DNA of 64,000 nt from Catellatospora bangladeshensis (GTDB lineage: Bacteria; Actinomycetota; Actinomycetes; Mycobacteriales; Micromonosporaceae). A program made the position numbers and the translations under genes. Numbering within the stretch: the first letter of the stretch is position 1; every line of letters begins with the position of its first letter. The notes under the pieces are model-generated. The model was not told the origin of the DNA. It did no database searches and saw only the letters and a list, made by a program, of their open reading frames with translations. The stretch lies in contig NZ_BONF01000043.1 in the NCBI RefSeq assembly GCF_016862575.1, positions 1 to 64,000 on the forward strand, written 5' to 3'. Below, in pieces: positions 4,618 to 54,859 of this stretch.

Positions 4618-4620
4618 AAG

Positions 4621-4664
4621 GAAGGGCACCTTCTTAACGCTATGCGTTGTAGAAGGTGCCCTTC
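4621..4664 (+). repeat. Family A palindrome, copy 1
   Basis: GAAGGGCACCTTC (4621-4633) and its exact complement GAAGGTGCCCTTC (4652-4664) flank an 18-base spacer. The spacer itself contains the small palindrome AACGCTATGCGTT. Each arm can also fold alone (GAAGG/CCTTC). The element starts 3 bases after the lyase stop codon and reads in that gene's sense orientation. Total length is 44 bp, as in the other three copies. Confidence 0.85.
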
Positions 4665-4758
4665 TTAACGCCTCGGTGGTGGACGCCTGGGCTGGCGCCA
4701 ACCCACTGGGCGGCGTGGCTCGCTCAGCGGCGCGGCTCGCTGGGCGGCGCGGGGCGAA

Positions 4759-4819: not shown

Positions 4820-4849
4820 AACACCCGCCCCGAGACCCCGCCACGTTAG

Positions 4850-4893
4850 GAAGGGCACCTTCCTCTACGCATAGCGTTAAGAAGGTGCCCTTC
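4850..4893 (-). repeat. Family A palindrome, copy 2
   Basis: The arms lie at 4850-4862 and 4881-4893 and are identical to those of copy 1. The spacer is reversed (contains ACGCATAGCGT), so this copy reads in the sense of the thioesterase gene on the minus strand, whose stop codon is 45 bases away. Confidence 0.85.
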
Positions 4894-4938
4894 CTAACCG
4901 ACGGAGGCGGCTCCGGCGCGGGGCCGGGGCGGGGTGGG

Positions 4939-20657: not shown

Positions 20658-20691
20658 CCCGCCGGCCGGTGCCCACGTGCCGGCCGGCGGG
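20658..20691 (+). terminator. Terminator hairpin after the sugar operon
   Basis: CCCGCCGGCCGG (20658-20669) pairs exactly with CCGGCCGGCGGG (20680-20691) across a 10-base loop, 8 bases after the isomerase stop codon. Confidence 0.75.
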
Positions 20692-20702
20692 CCTGAGATA
20701 AG

Positions 20703-20746
20703 GAAGGGCACCTTCTTAACGCTATGCGTATAGGAAGGTGCCCTTC
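20703..20746 (+). repeat. Family A palindrome, copy 3
   Basis: The two 13-base arms (20703-20715 and 20734-20746) are identical to the other copies, and the spacer reads TTAACGCTATGCGT in the sense of the upstream isomerase gene. It is followed 41 bases later by family B copy 3. The same pair recurs inverted at 22097-22242. Confidence 0.85.
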
Positions 20747-22198: not shown

Positions 22199-22242
22199 GA
22201 AGGGCACCTTCCTATACGCATAGCGTTAAGAAGGTGCCCTTC
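22199..22242 (-). repeat. Family A palindrome, copy 4
   Basis: The arms lie at 22199-22211 and 22230-22242. Read on the minus strand, it is identical to copy 3 over the whole 44 bp and flanks. It ends 5 bases from the M23 peptidase stop codon, in that gene's sense orientation. Confidence 0.85.
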
Positions 22243-27769: not shown

Positions 27770-27975
27770 TGGTCCACCCCTCCGGTGCCCTCAAGCACCG
27801 GGTCGAGGGGTGCGCGCGAGCCGTCGTGAGGCGGTCTCGCGCTGAGGGAATCCGGTGCGATTCCGGAGCTGCCCCGCAGCGGTGAGTGGGAACGAAGCCG
27901 TCCCGCGCCCTCCCGCGAAGAGGGCGCGGAGCAGCACTGGGCCGTCCGGCCTGGGAAGCGACGGCGTAGGGGGTC
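27770..27975 (+). ncRNA. Cobalamin (B12) riboswitch
   Basis: The conserved core is clear. GGTGCC lies near 27784, and GGGAATCCGGTGCGATTCCGG with GCTGCCCCGCAGCGGTGAG occupies about 27845-27887. GGGAACGAAGCC follows, then a GC-rich variable hairpin, then CACTGGGCC-CCGGCCTGGGAAG near 27933-27960. It controls the downstream nrdAB operon. The same arrangement is established for class Ia nrdAB of Streptomyces, where B12 shuts the operon off because a B12-dependent class II reductase can take over. The ends are approximate. Confidence 0.93.
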
Positions 27976-28210
27976 GACGTGCGGCGCGGCGGGAGCCGGG
28001 CCGGTCGGCCGCGCCCATGAGCCCGAAGACCTGCCGGCGTGCGCGCCGCGGCCCAGCCCGCGACGCGCCCCCGACCCGTCGGTCCGTCCGGACCGGAGCG
28101 GGCCGAGGACACCGGGCCGCGCGGGACGGTCCACGGTGGACCGTGCCCATCCGGCTCAGGATGAGTGCTGTTCGCGTGCCCTCCCGCGCTCGATGAGGGG
28201 GAGCGCACGC
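27976..28210 (+). other. nrdA leader, likely expression platform
   Basis: This 235-base GC-rich stretch between the riboswitch core and the nrdA start holds hairpins at 28081-28094 (GGTCC-GTCC-GGACC) and 28126-28144 (ACGGTCCA-CGG-TGGACCGT). It ends with the purine-rich GAGGGGGAG at about 28194-28203. No coding potential is convincing. One of the hairpins may be the switchable terminator or ribosome-binding-site sequestrator. Confidence 0.5.
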
Positions 28211-32864: not shown

Positions 32865-33586
32865 TTGTCGAGGATCGCCGCGAACCGCTTCTCGGCGAGG
32901 TCGAACTGGGCGAAGATGTGCGCCTTGACCTCGCCGATCAGCGGCGTGTCCGCCCGCGCGACCAGCTCGCGCAGGGCGGGCACGAGCGGCGAGTACTTCG
33001 TCGCGGCCCGGCGCACCTTCGGCCCGATGGTGTGGATGACGCCCACGCCGTTGTCGGTGAAGTCGGAGACCTTGATGACGCGCGCCCACGGGTCCACGTC
33101 CAGCGACTCGACCACGTGCGCCCGGTACTGCTCGTCCTTGTCGCGGTCGAGGTCGTACTCCGGGTTGGTCACCGCGGCGACCAGCGACGCGACCCGGGGG
33201 CTGAACCGCTCGGCGAGCGCCGCGAGGGCCTGCTCGCGGGGCGGCGGGCCGCTGCGGTGGGTCTGGCCGACGATGCCCCACGGCTGGTCCTCGACGGAGT
33301 CGTGGAGCAGGGCGGCGACCAGCACGTCCCGGTCGGTGATCCGGTAGTAGTGGATGATCCGGATGGTCACCCGCAGCAGGTGGTTGAGGTACGGCTCGCG
33401 TACCCGCCGCTGCTCGGCGTGCAGCCGCGCGGCCAGCTCCAGGGCCTCGCCCAGCACGGCGCGGTCCGCCTCGGGCAGCCGCTCGATCTCCAGGGCGAAC
33501 CGGTCGCGCAGCCCCTGCTCGCCGAGCACCTCGGTGATGGCGTGCAGGGGCATGGTCATGAGATACGCCGGCGCGGTCGCGTCCAT
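32861..33586 (-). CDS. HD-domain phosphohydrolase, SpoT/MESH1-like
   Basis: The 241-residue protein has the RSH-type HD order: NHLLRVT with His69, LVAALLHDSVED with H95-D96 and E99-D100, and a later KVSDFTDN segment. This fits single-domain (p)ppGpp hydrolases or related nucleotide phosphohydrolases. No synthetase domain is present. A role in removing alarmones is plausible but unproven. The start at ATG 33586 follows the AT-rich TATAAA by 7 bases, consistent with leaderless initiation. Two in-frame ATGs lie 9 and 11 codons later. It converges with the TIR gene, with a 4-base overlap of the 3-prime ends. Confidence 0.8.
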   Translation of the reverse strand: MDATAPAYLMTMPLHAITEVLGEQGLRDRFALEIERLPEADRAVLGEALELAARLHAEQRRVREPYLNHLLRVTIRIIHYYRITDRDVLVAALLHDSVEDQPWGIVGQTHRSGPPPREQALAALAERFSPRVASLVAAVTNPEYDLDRDKDEQYRAHVVESLDVDPWARVIKVSDFTDNGVGVIHTIGPKVRRAATKYSPLVPALRELVARADTPLIGEVKAHIFAQFDLAEKRFAAILDN

Positions 33587-39643: not shown

Positions 39644-39660
39644 GGTATGGGTGGCCCTTC

Positions 39661-39775
39661 TCCGTGGCCGCCTACCGAGTTAGCTGACGGGTTCGGGCGA
39701 AGGGCGCCCTACCGCCGTCACTCATGGTGACTGCGGATTCACCCCAGTGGTGGTGGGTCCCCGGCTCGCGGCGCT
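39661..39775 (-). ncRNA. Cyclic di-AMP (ydaO-yuaA) riboswitch
   Basis: Read on the minus strand, the conserved blocks are present in order. CCGGGGACCCACCACCACTG is followed by GGGGTGAATCCGC and a variable hairpin. Next come AGGGCGCCCTTCGCCCGAACCCG and finally TCAGCTAACTCGGTAGGCGG. These match the ydaO consensus. The class binds c-di-AMP and usually turns off osmotic and wall-hydrolase genes. It sits directly before the NlpC/P60 gene. The ends are approximate. Confidence 0.93.
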
Positions 39776-39872
39776 CCGGACGACATCGATCGTCCCGATC
39801 GCTCGGCGACTCGGCGGCGCTGGTCCGGTGCCACCCGGGGGTGGGCGGCGGACAACCGGTCCAGTGCCGGCA

Positions 39873-50796: not shown

Positions 50797-51741
50797 CTAG
50801 CGGAGGTAGGTGGTTAGCCAGCGGTCGGACTGGTCGAAGAACTGGTCGCGGGCTGGTTGGCGGGAGAGGGTGAGGTCGTGTTTGCCGCCGTCTACGCGGA
50901 CCAGGGTGAGGTGGCGGCCTACGGCGGGGGCCCAGCGCACGATGTGGTCCACGTTGAGGACGGCGTCGGCGTCGTGGGCCTGCTCCGACCAGACGCGCTG
51001 GCGGTAGGAGGCGGTCGAGCAGCCGACGAAGACGGGGACCTTGAGGTCCAGGCCGCGGTGCAGGCGGCGCTGGCCGCTGCGGATCGCGTTCAGCCAGGCC
51101 ACCCGGACCGGGAAGCCGATCACCGGCTTCCAGTCGACGCGGTAGTCCCACTCGCCGTCGTGGTCGCGGTGCAGGCTGCGGCCGTACAGGCCGGGCATCT
51201 TCAGCGGGATCACCCGGTAGGGGGCGCGCTGGGCGAGGGAGCCGACCGCGGACACGGCCGGGCGGCGCATGAACCAGGGCGCGTTGATGTCGAAGAACGG
51301 GCTGTTGAGCAGCAGGCCGTCGACCAGGTTCGCGTCCGCGCGGGCGTCGGCCCACAGGGCGGTGATCAGGCCGCCCGTGGAGTGGGCCGCGACCACCAGC
51401 ATGTCGTGGCCTTCGTCGTCGCGGATGATCCGGGCGGCCTCGTCCAGCTCCGGGAAGTACTCCGACATGCTGCGGGTGAAGTTGGGCGTCTGGTGCGTGA
51501 GCAGGCTGCGGCCGTACTTGCGCAGGTCCAGGGCGTAGAAGTCGTAGCCGCGGGCGACGAAGAAGTCGGCCAGGTGCGTCTGGAAGAAGTAGTCGTTGAA
51601 GCCGTGCACGTAGAGCACCGCGCGCGTGGTGGTGCCGGGCGCCTTCCGGCTGACCAGGGTGGCGACGACCTTGCCCTGGTCGTCGTCGGGCAGCTCGATG
51701 ACGCGCTGGGTGTACGGCTCGCCGAGGATGTCCGTCTGCAC
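50797..51741 (-). CDS. Alpha/beta hydrolase, monoacylglycerol lipase-like
   Basis: The 314-residue protein has the nucleophile elbow AHSTGG (Ser near residue 120), an oxyanion region YVHGFNDYFFQ, and the catalytic His in DGGKHDL near residue 290. It fits the serine aminopeptidase S33/lysophospholipase-like hydrolases. The substrate is unknown. GTG 51741 is the start, and TAACAT lies 6 bases before it on the minus strand, suggesting a leaderless mRNA. There is no signal peptide. Confidence 0.85.
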   Translation of the reverse strand: MQTDILGEPYTQRVIELPDDDQGKVVATLVSRKAPGTTTRAVLYVHGFNDYFFQTHLADFFVARGYDFYALDLRKYGRSLLTHQTPNFTRSMSEYFPELDEAARIIRDDEGHDMLVVAAHSTGGLITALWADARADANLVDGLLLNSPFFDINAPWFMRRPAVSAVGSLAQRAPYRVIPLKMPGLYGRSLHRDHDGEWDYRVDWKPVIGFPVRVAWLNAIRSGQRRLHRGLDLKVPVFVGCSTASYRQRVWSEQAHDADAVLNVDHIVRWAPAVGRHLTLVRVDGGKHDLTLSRQPARDQFFDQSDRWLTTYLR

Positions 51742-51906
51742 GGCGCAATGTTACCGCGAGGTAGGCATGCGCCATAACAGATCAACTTCATGATCAGGCG
51801 GTTATCCCCAACCACGCCTCTGTCCACAGGGCGGGGCCGCAGGCGGTGGTACGCCGCGCCCGGGTGGCGCAACCTCTGCGGTGTCGGACATCGAGAGGAG
51901 AAGGCA

Positions 51907-52563
51907 GTGTTTGACACCCCCATAACCGTGATCGGGAACGTGCTGACCGCGCCGGAGTGGCGGCGCACCAGCCAGTCCGGGCAGCTCGTGGCGAACTTCA
52001 AGGTGGCCTCCACCGCCCGGCGGCTGGACAAGGCGAACAACCGCTGGGTGGACGGCAACAGCCTGCGCGTGCGGGTCAACTGCTGGCGGCGGCTGGCCGA
52101 GGGCGTGGCCAGCTCGATCATGGTGGGCGACCCCGTGGTCGTGGTGGGCCGGCTCTACACCCGCGACTGGATCGACGAGGAGGGCCAGCGCCGGGTGATG
52201 TACGAGGTGGAGGCGGTGGCCGTCGGGCACGACCTGTCCCGGGGCCGGGCGAAGTTCGCCCGCACCAAGCCGAGCACCACGATCAGCGCCGTCGAGGACG
52301 CCGCGGCCGAGGCGCGGGCCGGCGGCGAGGCGACCGTGGCCGCGCCCGACATGCGGGTCGGCCCCGACCCGAACGACCCGCTGTTCGCCGAGGACGACGA
52401 CGCGTCGTTCGGCGGCCCGTTCGACCTGGACGCGGTCGCCTCGCTGCGCGGCGGCGGCCTGCAGGCCGAGCTGGTCGGCGGCGAGCAGGACGCCGACGAG
52501 GACGACGAGGACGACCTCGACGACGACGTGACGGCGCTCGACCGGGTGCCCGTCGCGGCCTGA
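51907..52563 (+). CDS. ssb: Single-stranded DNA-binding protein with atypical tail
   Basis: The 218-residue protein has an N-terminal OB-fold (about 1-108, with [13 protein letters not shown] and [12 protein letters not shown]). A long low-complexity linker and an acidic stretch follow (about 196-210, [13 protein letters not shown]). The C-terminus then ends [11 protein letters not shown], not with the DDxPF tip that recruits repair proteins in canonical SSB. It is therefore an accessory SSB, not the replication one. GTG 51907 is preceded by a strong GAGAGGAGAAGG. Confidence 0.9.
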
Positions 52564-52578
52564 CCCGGGGAGGGGACA

Positions 52579-52730
52579 CCTCCGGCCCGTCCGTCATCCC
52601 CGTTGATGCGGGCCGGAGGGCTGGTGGCACGCGGTTCGACCGCCGCGTGCCACGGGGGCGGGGCGGCCGGCGGGTGCACTGGGGAGACCGGCCGCCCCGG
52701 CTCTCCGGCACGTCACGGCGTGTCGGAGAG
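52579..52730. repeat. Array of four consecutive stem-loops between ssb and cobQ
   Basis: Four hairpins follow one another. They are 52579-52619 (11-bp stem), 52624-52653 (11-bp stem), 52659-52699 (12-bp stem) and 52701-52730 (12-bp stem with one G-U). All stems are otherwise perfect and together fill the 197-bp gap. The first is probably the ssb terminator. The others have no obvious role. Confidence 0.75.
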
Positions 52731-52760
52731 CACAGCACCGGCTCACCTAGGCTGAGGGAC

Positions 52761-54299
52761 ATGAGCGGGATCTTGATCGCCGGCACGACCTCGGACGCCG
52801 GCAAGAGCGTGCTGACCGCCGGGGTGTGCCGCTGGCTGCACCGGCGCGGCGTGCGGGTGGCCCCGTTCAAGGCGCAGAACATGTCGAACAACTCGGCCGT
52901 GGTGGTCGACGCGCAGGGGCGGGGCGGGGAGATCGGCCGGGCGCAGGCGCTGCAGGCGGTGGCGTGCGGGCTGGAGCCGCAGGTGCGGTTCAACCCGGTG
53001 CTGCTCAAGCCGGGCAGCGACCACACCAGCCAGGTCGTGCTGCTGGGACAGGCGGTCGACCACATCGACGCGGCGAACTTCCGGCGGCTGAAGACCACCA
53101 TGTCCGGGGCCGCCTTCACCGCGTACGACGAGCTGTCCGCCGAGTACGACGTGGTGGTGTGCGAGGGGGCGGGCAGTCCCGCCGAGATCAACCTGCGCGA
53201 CCACGACTACGTGAACATGGGCCTGGCCCGGCACGGGCAGATGCCCACGATCGTGGTCGGCGACATCGACCGCGGCGGCGTGTTCGCCGCGATGTTCGGC
53301 ACCGTGGCCCTGCTCGATCCCGAGGACCAGGCGCTGGTCGCGGGCTTCGTGGTGAACAAGTTCCGCGGCTCGCGGGCGCTGCTCCAGCCCGGCCTCGACA
53401 TGATCGAGTCGGCCACCGGGCGGACCGTGTACGGCGTGCTGCCGTTCGATGTGGACCTGTGGCTCGACGCCGAGGACGCGCTCGCGTACGGGCGGGTGCT
53501 CGGCCGGCCCGGCCCGGCGCGGGGGAGCGAGTGGCTGCGGGTGGCCGTGGTGCGGCTGCCGCACATCTCCAACGCCACCGACGCCGAGGCGCTGGCCTGC
53601 GAGCCGGGGGTGAGCGTGCGGCTGACCGTCGAGCCCGGCGAGCTGGCCGACGCCGATCTGGTGGTGCTGCCGGGCACCAAGGCGACCGTGGACGACCTGC
53701 GCTGGCTGCGCGAGACCGGCCTCGACCAGGCGGTGCTCGCGCACGCCCGCGCGGGCAGGCCGCTGCTCGGCATCTGCGGCGGCTTCCAGATGCTCGCCGA
53801 GCAGATCACCGACGAGGTGGAGAGCCGCCGCGGCGAGGTGCCCGGCCTCGGCCTGCTGCCGGTGCGGATCGCGTTCGCGGCGGACAAGACCCTGGCCCGG
53901 CCCGCCGGGCAGGCGCTCGGCGCGGACGTACGCGGGTACGAGATCCATCACGGCCGGGTGGCGCACCGCGCGCCCGAGCTGCAAGCGCTGATCACGCTGC
54001 CCGGCGGGGAGACCGAGGGCGCGGTCGCCGGGAACGTGTTCGGCACCCACTGGCACGGCGCGTTCGAGTCCGACGATTTCCGCCGCCGGTTCCTGACCCA
54101 CGCGGCCGGGCTGGCCGGGCGGCACGGCTTCGCCGTCGCGCCGGACACGAGCTTCGCCGCGCTGCGCGAGGCCACCGTGGACCGGCTCGGCGACCTGGTC
54201 GAGGAGCACCTCGACACCGACGCCCTGTGGCGGCTCGTGGAGAAGGGCGCCCCGCCCGGCCTGCCGTTCCTGCCGCCCGGCGCGCCAGCTCTGGCATGA
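52761..54299 (+). CDS. cobQ: Cobyric acid synthase
   Basis: The 512-residue enzyme amidates four carboxyl side chains of adenosylcobyrinic a,c-diamide using glutamine and ATP. The N-terminal synthetase domain has the P-loop GTTSDAGKS (8-16) and [10 protein letters not shown]. The C-terminal glutamine amidotransferase domain has the nucleophile Cys in GICGGFQML and His in GTHWHG. ATG 52761 lies 6 bases after TAGGCT, a leaderless-type layout. No B12 riboswitch precedes it. The next gene overlaps by ATGA. Confidence 0.95.
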
Positions 54300-54859
54300 G
54301 CGAGCAGGCACGCGAGGACGTGACGATGCTGCTCGCCGCGCCGCCCCGGCTGGGGCGCAGCAGGCTGGTGCTGGTCGACGGGCCGAGCGGGGCGGGCAAG
54401 ACGTTCTACGCCGGGCGGCTCGCCGAGGACCTGTCCGGCAGCGGGCGGAGCGTGGCCACCGTGCACACCGACGACCTGCTCGACGGCTGGGACGACCAGT
54501 TCACCTACTGGTCGCGGCTGGAGCGGCAGGTGCTCGCGCCGATCCGGCACGGCGCGCCGGGCGGGTACCACCCGTACGACTGGCACCTGCGGCGCTTCGG
54601 CACCGAGTGGGTGACGGTGTGGCCCGCCGACGTGGTGCTCGTCGAGGGCGTGGGCTGCGGCCGGGCCGAGGGCCGGGCCTGGGCCAGCCTGACCGTCTAC
54701 GTGTACGCCCCGGCGGCGGTGCGCCGCGCACGCAGCATCGTGCGCGACGGGCCCGCGATGCAGCCGGCGCTGCGGGAGTGGCGACGCCGCGAGGCGATCC
54801 ACTTCGCCGCCGACGCCACCGCGCTCCAGGCCGACCTGCGCATCGACGGCTCGGCCTGA
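54296..54859 (+). CDS. Uridine kinase-like P-loop NTPase
   Basis: The 187-residue protein has Walker A GPSGAGKT (29-36), a [11 protein letters not shown] segment like the substrate loop of uridine/pantothenate kinases, and VVLVEGVG (Walker B-like). It most resembles actinobacterial uridine kinase-like proteins. The substrate is unproven. ATG 54296 overlaps the cobQ stop codon. It is not CobU, which would have a different motif set, so a direct role in cobalamin assembly is unlikely despite co-transcription. Confidence 0.75.

Follow-up and report, generated by a model that had tools for sequence, protein, structure and literature searches.

We propose that a block of four hairpins between ssb and cobQ in Catellatospora bangladeshensis makes up the 3' end of the ssb transcription unit. 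Within it, H3 is likely to be an ancestral U-less ssb terminator or RNA 3'-end hairpin, around which H1, H2 and H4 would have been added in this lineage to form a termination cluster. The block lies in a stretch of 64,000 nucleotides, hereafter the window, from an 8.83-Mb genome in 115 contigs belonging to the genus Catellatospora. All features concerned are on the + strand: ssb, a spacer of 197 bases, and cobQ, the two genes being directly adjacent in all 11 Catellatospora genomes compared. They are listed below.

51907..52563, + strand: ssb paralogue, single-stranded DNA-binding protein of 218 aa (Pfam SSB, 1.6e-18, above cut-off)
52579..52619, + strand: H1, 11-bp stem, 19-nt loop; shared at this locus by the sister genome G007 alone
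52624..52653, + strand: H2, 11-bp stem, 8-nt loop; likewise shared at this locus by G007 alone
52659..52699, + strand: H3, 12-bp all-GC stem, 17-nt loop; conserved, proposed ssb terminator
52700..52731, + strand: H4, 13-bp stem including one G-T pair, 6-nt loop; adjoins H3 and overlaps the expected cobQ -35
52748..52753, + strand: -10-like TAGGCT of cobQ, 7 nt ahead of its ATG
52761..54299, + strand: cobQ, cobyric acid synthase of 512 aa (NCBIfam NF001989, 4.6e-179; TIGR00313 cobQ, 3.8e-133; both above cut-off)

The best matches of the 51907..52563 product are NCBIfam SSB models, yet they fall under their own cut-offs. A second SSB match in the same genome (G000:C38:92380-92745) shows 45% identity over the matched part.

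The crowding of H1-H4 is genuine, beyond chance, and rare in the sampled genome. Hairpins were counted under a strict rule, requiring a stem of at least 11 bp with at most one G-T pair and a loop of 3-20 nt. Four such hairpins are found in the spacer. Among 2000 dinucleotide shuffles of its 197 bases, 1952 contained none, 48 contained one, and two were never seen; across ten third-order Markov copies of the window, 87 hairpins were counted, all isolated and none clustered. The folding of the spacer RNA has a z of -4.38, and none of 200 shuffles was equally stable. Over 1,965,827 bases of the same genome beyond the window, the strict rule returned 577 lone hairpins, 11 pairs and no larger group; the window itself has 24 lone hairpins, 2 pairs and the H1-H4 foursome. 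With a stem cut-off lowered to 10 bp, one further cluster of three appeared in the own-genome sample, and with 9 bp, one further cluster of four and two of three. In 400 kb of the sister genome, 136 lone hairpins and 2 pairs were counted under the strict rule. The shuffles and the genome scan thus bear out the initial annotation, which had been made from the letters and had judged the crowding remarkable. Its geometry needed some correction: it described four perfect stems of 11-12 bp over 152 bases with gaps of 1-5, and all four are indeed present, but the stems measure 11, 11, 12 and 13 bp, H4 has a G-T pair, the gaps are of 4, 5 and 0 bases, and the block spans 153 bases (52579-52731). It also placed the start of TAGGCT 18 bases past the last hairpin; the box is there, with 16 bases between.

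H3 is the conserved member of the series. As a GC-rich stem of ~12 bp with a purine-rich loop, it is found in the ssb-cobQ spacer of 11/11 Catellatospora genomes and of G026, which belongs to another genus (locus L013). Spacer counts, the H3 model and the -10 counts refer to the 12 loci (L001-L011 and L013), among 30 cobQ loci, where ssb directly precedes cobQ; L012, with ssb ~1 kb upstream, and loci with ssb farther off or outside the stretch were left out of the spacer counts. The H3 model, itself made from these 12 sequences, gave a single strong match per Catellatospora genome (11 genomes), always between ssb and cobQ, at 56.6-68.7 bits, the next best match in any of them reaching 37.1 bits. 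In the alignment of 11 distinct rows, pairing holds in 94.7% of cells, and both sides have changed at 3 pairs, in 7 cells, with for instance G-C replaced by A-T in 4 rows and C-G by T-A in 2 rows. None of 500 shuffles attained this number of cells, or the covariation score; the number of double-change pairs was matched by 83/500 and the number of pair types by 115/500, and the outermost pair, one of the three doubly changed, is unpaired in 7/11 rows. This suggests some covariation in H3, modest and resting on few pairs. A covariation test among related species, as proposed with the initial annotation, is therefore passed modestly by H3, whereas H1, H2 and H4 exist only in two near-identical genomes.

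Beyond the genus, the H3 model had no match in 136 of the 150 family genomes. Besides the 11 Catellatospora, it matched G026, which is not independent as its sequence was in the model, G108 and G067. In G108, of another genus, the match lies behind ssb and scores 42.5 bits on the strand opposite ssb transcription, against 28.5. The stem is thus shared and the loop is not, and the idea of an H3 whose loop is conserved between genera was rejected. In G067, the match (C1:5177823) is away from the ssb locus (C1:3078225). In G028, which has the nearest CobQ outside the genus, ssb is ~1 kb from cobQ, and the H3 model found no match.

We turn to hairpins of any sequence behind ssb. A stem of at least 9 bp was present within 200 nt past the ssb stop in 49 of 59 other Micromonosporaceae loci, these being the best 59 of the 137 genomes outside Catellatospora where ssb was matched, several per genus and not independent; some of the 200 nt runs into the next gene, and two loci (L211 and L212) had a spacer of less than 200 nt. 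One hairpin was found in 36 loci, two in 11, three in 2 and four in none, the 10 other loci having no stem of at least 9 bp in these 200 nt. The mean is 1.08 hairpins per locus, compared with 0.29 in first-order shuffled sequence. A cobD-like reading frame, its start recognised by what we take to be the characteristic motif, lies within 300 nt of ssb in 23/59 loci; 21 of them have a hairpin, as do 28 of the 36 loci without such a frame. An arm with GGGGTGGC recurs in 12/59 family loci, and also in the H3 arms of G008, G009 and G026. Judging from these sequences, a hairpin appears to go with ssb whatever gene comes next, and at that place a hairpin is common in the family loci sampled, H3 itself being rare outside the genus.

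The rest of the series has a much narrower distribution. Strict hairpins number 4 in the present spacer and 3 in that of the sister genome G007; the other 9 congeners and G026 have a single one apiece. The initial annotation had named lack of conservation in close relatives as grounds for giving up the series, and as a series of four it is indeed absent beyond the sister; taken hairpin by hairpin, H3 is kept throughout the genus and H1, H2 and H4 are confined to the two genomes. With stems of at least 9 bp, G007 does have four hairpins: a change at 52729 breaks one stem pair of its H4, which drops below the strict rule. The CobQ proteins of the two genomes are 99% identical. Their aligned spacers differ at 4 places, including two indels; the 112 nt of H1-H3 are unchanged, and one of the differences lies in H4. 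A further indel is found at the ssb stop codon. Over cobQ, 49/1539 sites differ, 42 of them third positions, so that by our own arithmetic the 112 bases of H1-H3 would be expected to carry ~3.6 differences at the gene average or ~9 at the third-position rate, as compared with the 0 seen. This single genome pair hints that H1 and H2 may be kept by constraint; hairpin-driven copy correction could be an alternative cause.

The spacers of the 11 congeners measure between 70 and 325 bases and can carry other inserts before or after H3. Four of them (L003, L005, L006 and L007) carry upstream of H3 a different, branched element of ~90 bases, in one full-length copy per genome; in L004, L008 and L009-L011, just 12-21 bases precede H3. 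The spacer therefore looks like one that may gain and lose folded inserts around one fixed hairpin. The branched element (e.g. L006:1322-1410) has two inner hairpins with a common GCGGTAG, and its other three copies are 91-94% identical to that of L006. By eye, one pair of its outer stem is swapped (C-G to G-C) when L006 is compared with L007, and is broken in L003. When H1-H2 was aligned with the branched element, scores of 65.5-71.5 were obtained, base-shuffled means being ~46 (sd 6.4-7.1); those for L003 and L007 exceeded the top of 300 shuffles, and those for L005 and L006 did not. Common flanks and composition may be behind this likeness.

On the cobQ side, TA[GC]GCT occurs 6-7 nt ahead of the ATG in 12/12 ssb-cobQ spacers compared, and L012 has its own TAGGGT 6 nt before the cobQ ATG. 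Transcription commonly starts 6-7 bases downstream of a -10 box. Given this usual distance and the conserved spacing, the first base of the cobQ message would be that of the ATG or one close beside it, and the message is probably leaderless and made from its own promoter. No good -35 is visible, and a consensus scan found no sigma-70 type site; in the present species, the expected -35 position coincides with the right arm of H4.

How does the block compare with known elements? No L-shaped intrinsic terminator was found: none of the hairpins is followed by a U-tract, and a terminator scan of 51700-54500 gave 0 sites, where 0.2 are expected. H3 resembles I-shaped, or U-less, terminators in its strong GC stem past the stop codon without a U-tract, an arrangement present in 12/12 ssb-cobQ spacers. 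The I-shaped class typically has a single hairpin, so that H3 taken alone fits it but a series of four does not. Dispersed palindromes of the REP type are intergenic palindromic units near one another. H1-H4 are likewise intergenic palindromes close to each other, but they are single-copy in the searches made and mutually dissimilar. REP-like repeats were indeed rejected: the spacer is single-copy in its own genome, the best other match having an E of 0.005 over 29 bases. A repeat family of the individual hairpins was rejected as well, since the matches of H1-H4 to 2455 hairpins from 2.03 Mb of the genome were all short and no better than chance (E 0.013 or worse). A genus search with the H1-H2 part found no family either, the match that kept coming back being to an H2-like hairpin at other loci. 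The repeat cluster suggested in the initial annotation is thus abandoned, the spacer search of the genome and the single-hairpin search of 2.03 Mb of it having given no further copies. A riboswitch or other known RNA was rejected too, as no credible Rfam match fell in the spacer, whether at gathering score over the window, at a loose threshold over 52500-52800, or in three congener loci. The best weak match in 52500-52800, Guanidine-II (20.8 bits vs 32), sits at 52503-52568, nearly all inside the ssb CDS. The same annotation had also suggested a structured RNA or a multi-site protein-binding element; of these readings there remains one conserved and modestly covarying hairpin, H3, in a series that is not conserved beyond the sister and has no Rfam match above threshold. 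Overall, we found no evidence for a riboswitch, a repeat family or a conserved operator.

Two published descriptions are closer. Of 535 highly structured RNA ends reported in S. clavuligerus, 182 are U-rich and 353 are not, and the U-less ends are interpreted there as possible I-shaped terminators or Rho-terminated transcript ends (PMC8269248); that report names the I-shaped, U-less terminators of GC-rich bacteria, citing Mitra et al. 2009. Gupta and Pal (2021, PMC8355165) describe hairpin-cluster termination units, with hairpins <15 nt apart in inter-operon regions and an average of 3 per cluster. These units are RNA-seq-linked in 13 genomes, two-hairpin clusters being the commonest and larger ones declining exponentially. 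Our block has at least two hairpins less than 15 nt apart, in a region that would be inter-operon if, as we infer, ssb and cobQ belong to separate operons; as in those clusters (PMC8355165), a U trail would be unnecessary. It differs from the RNA-seq-tied units of that report in being known from sequence alone, and in its long unbroken stems, four in a row. In view of the 353/535 U-less ends and of the clusters already described, we file the block as another case of that kind, and not as a new kind of element. No publication on the ssb-cobQ spacer was found by full-text literature search, judged by the titles and abstract openings listed.

The strongest rival to a termination cluster is that H1, H2 and H4 have no function. 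H3 alone would then be functional, and the three others would be neutral or transient palindromes, left by local rearrangements in a spacer where inserts are tolerated. We regard this as a possibility to be kept in mind, somewhat short of being the expected case. The 70 to 325 bases of the congener spacers, the inserts flanking H3, the pair-breaking change in the H4 of G007 and the lack of H1, H2 and H4 in nine congeners are what it would predict. It accounts poorly for the absence of any difference from the sister over H1-H3 while cobQ has 49, and for four stems of at least 11 bp standing together so far from chance. Termination could also be Rho-dependent, the hairpins merely blocking 3'-5' exonucleases and setting the mature 3' end of the ssb RNA. 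We consider this rather doubtful, even though the missing U-tract and the two readings given to the S. clavuligerus ends (PMC8269248) agree with it: only 16 bases separate H4 from the cobQ -10 box, so that by our reasoning Rho would have to act within cobQ, and a U trail has been argued to be unnecessary for intrinsic termination (PMC8355165).

Readings centred on cobQ fare worse. The hairpin arms are palindromic and H4 overlaps the place where a -35 would lie, as might be expected of a multi-site protein-binding operator at the cobQ promoter. BLAST of H1-H4 shows no common sequence among the stems, however, and from the end of H3 to the cobQ start codon there are 17 to 177 bases depending on the congener, unlike a fixed operator, so that such a function seems very unlikely. 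A 12-base direct repeat with one mismatch does connect an H1 arm with an H4 arm. As for control of cobQ by a structured RNA such as a riboswitch or an attenuator, the gene belongs to vitamin B12 synthesis, and B12 riboswitches are common upstream of such genes; a Cobalamin riboswitch even exists elsewhere in the window (27823-28034, + strand, 44.3 bits), not beside cobQ. We nevertheless give this reading hardly any credit, because no Rfam match in the spacer is above threshold, the hairpin architecture differs among congeners, and the -10 box lies downstream of the hairpins, which would leave them outside a message starting there. Extremely improbable, finally, is a lineage-specific switch, by which SSB would bind the loops or extruded arms of the palindromes, and SSB level or DNA melting would tune both its own 3' end and the cobQ start.

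Under the termination-cluster reading, H3 would be the ancestral GC-rich, U-less terminator of ssb, or the 3'-end hairpin of its Rho-terminated RNA, and the present species and its sister lineage would have gained H1 and H2 upstream of it and H4 downstream, making a tandem cluster. As the ssb RNA emerges, the hairpins would fold in turn, an order that we infer, and would pause and dislodge the polymerase; once folded, they would shield the 3' end of the ssb RNA. Read-through into cobQ would be limited, and the probably leaderless cobQ message, made from its own promoter, would thereby be insulated. The extra hairpins may bring some benefit; nine congeners manage with one strict hairpin, so the other three are dispensable. 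The locus offers a natural series, in which the same gene pair is separated by one strict hairpin in nine congeners and by three to four in this species and its sister. It lets one ask what added hairpins bring to a U-less actinobacterial terminator, and bears on how transcripts end without U-tracts in GC-rich actinomycetes.

Some other structured elements were observed along the way. A hairpin resembling H2 was present in 7/9 loci examined from this genome and congeners; one of them, with a GGCACGCGGTTCGACC core on one strand, is at L142:1496-1530 (G000:C8 near 452899), behind an ORF that reads as glycosidase-like. The window also contains a c-di-AMP riboswitch (ydaO/yuaA) at 39655-39783 on the - strand (68.4 bits). 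A dispersed palindrome of 42-54 bp, with GAAGGGCACCTTC arms and a CGCATAGC centre, occurs in the window at 4619-4666, 4845-4898, 20703-20746 and 22199-22242, and in 32 copies in 2.03 Mb of the genome. With at most 2 mismatches allowed, a 27-base piece of it occurs at 188 places in this genome and was found in 10 of the 61 genomes searched, namely 9/11 Catellatospora and G020, of another genus (38 sites). It looks like a lineage-expanding repeat of REP or terminator type. The two further close hairpin pairs of the window under the strict rule are at 20658-20746 and 32892-32984, and the second member of the former is this dispersed palindrome.
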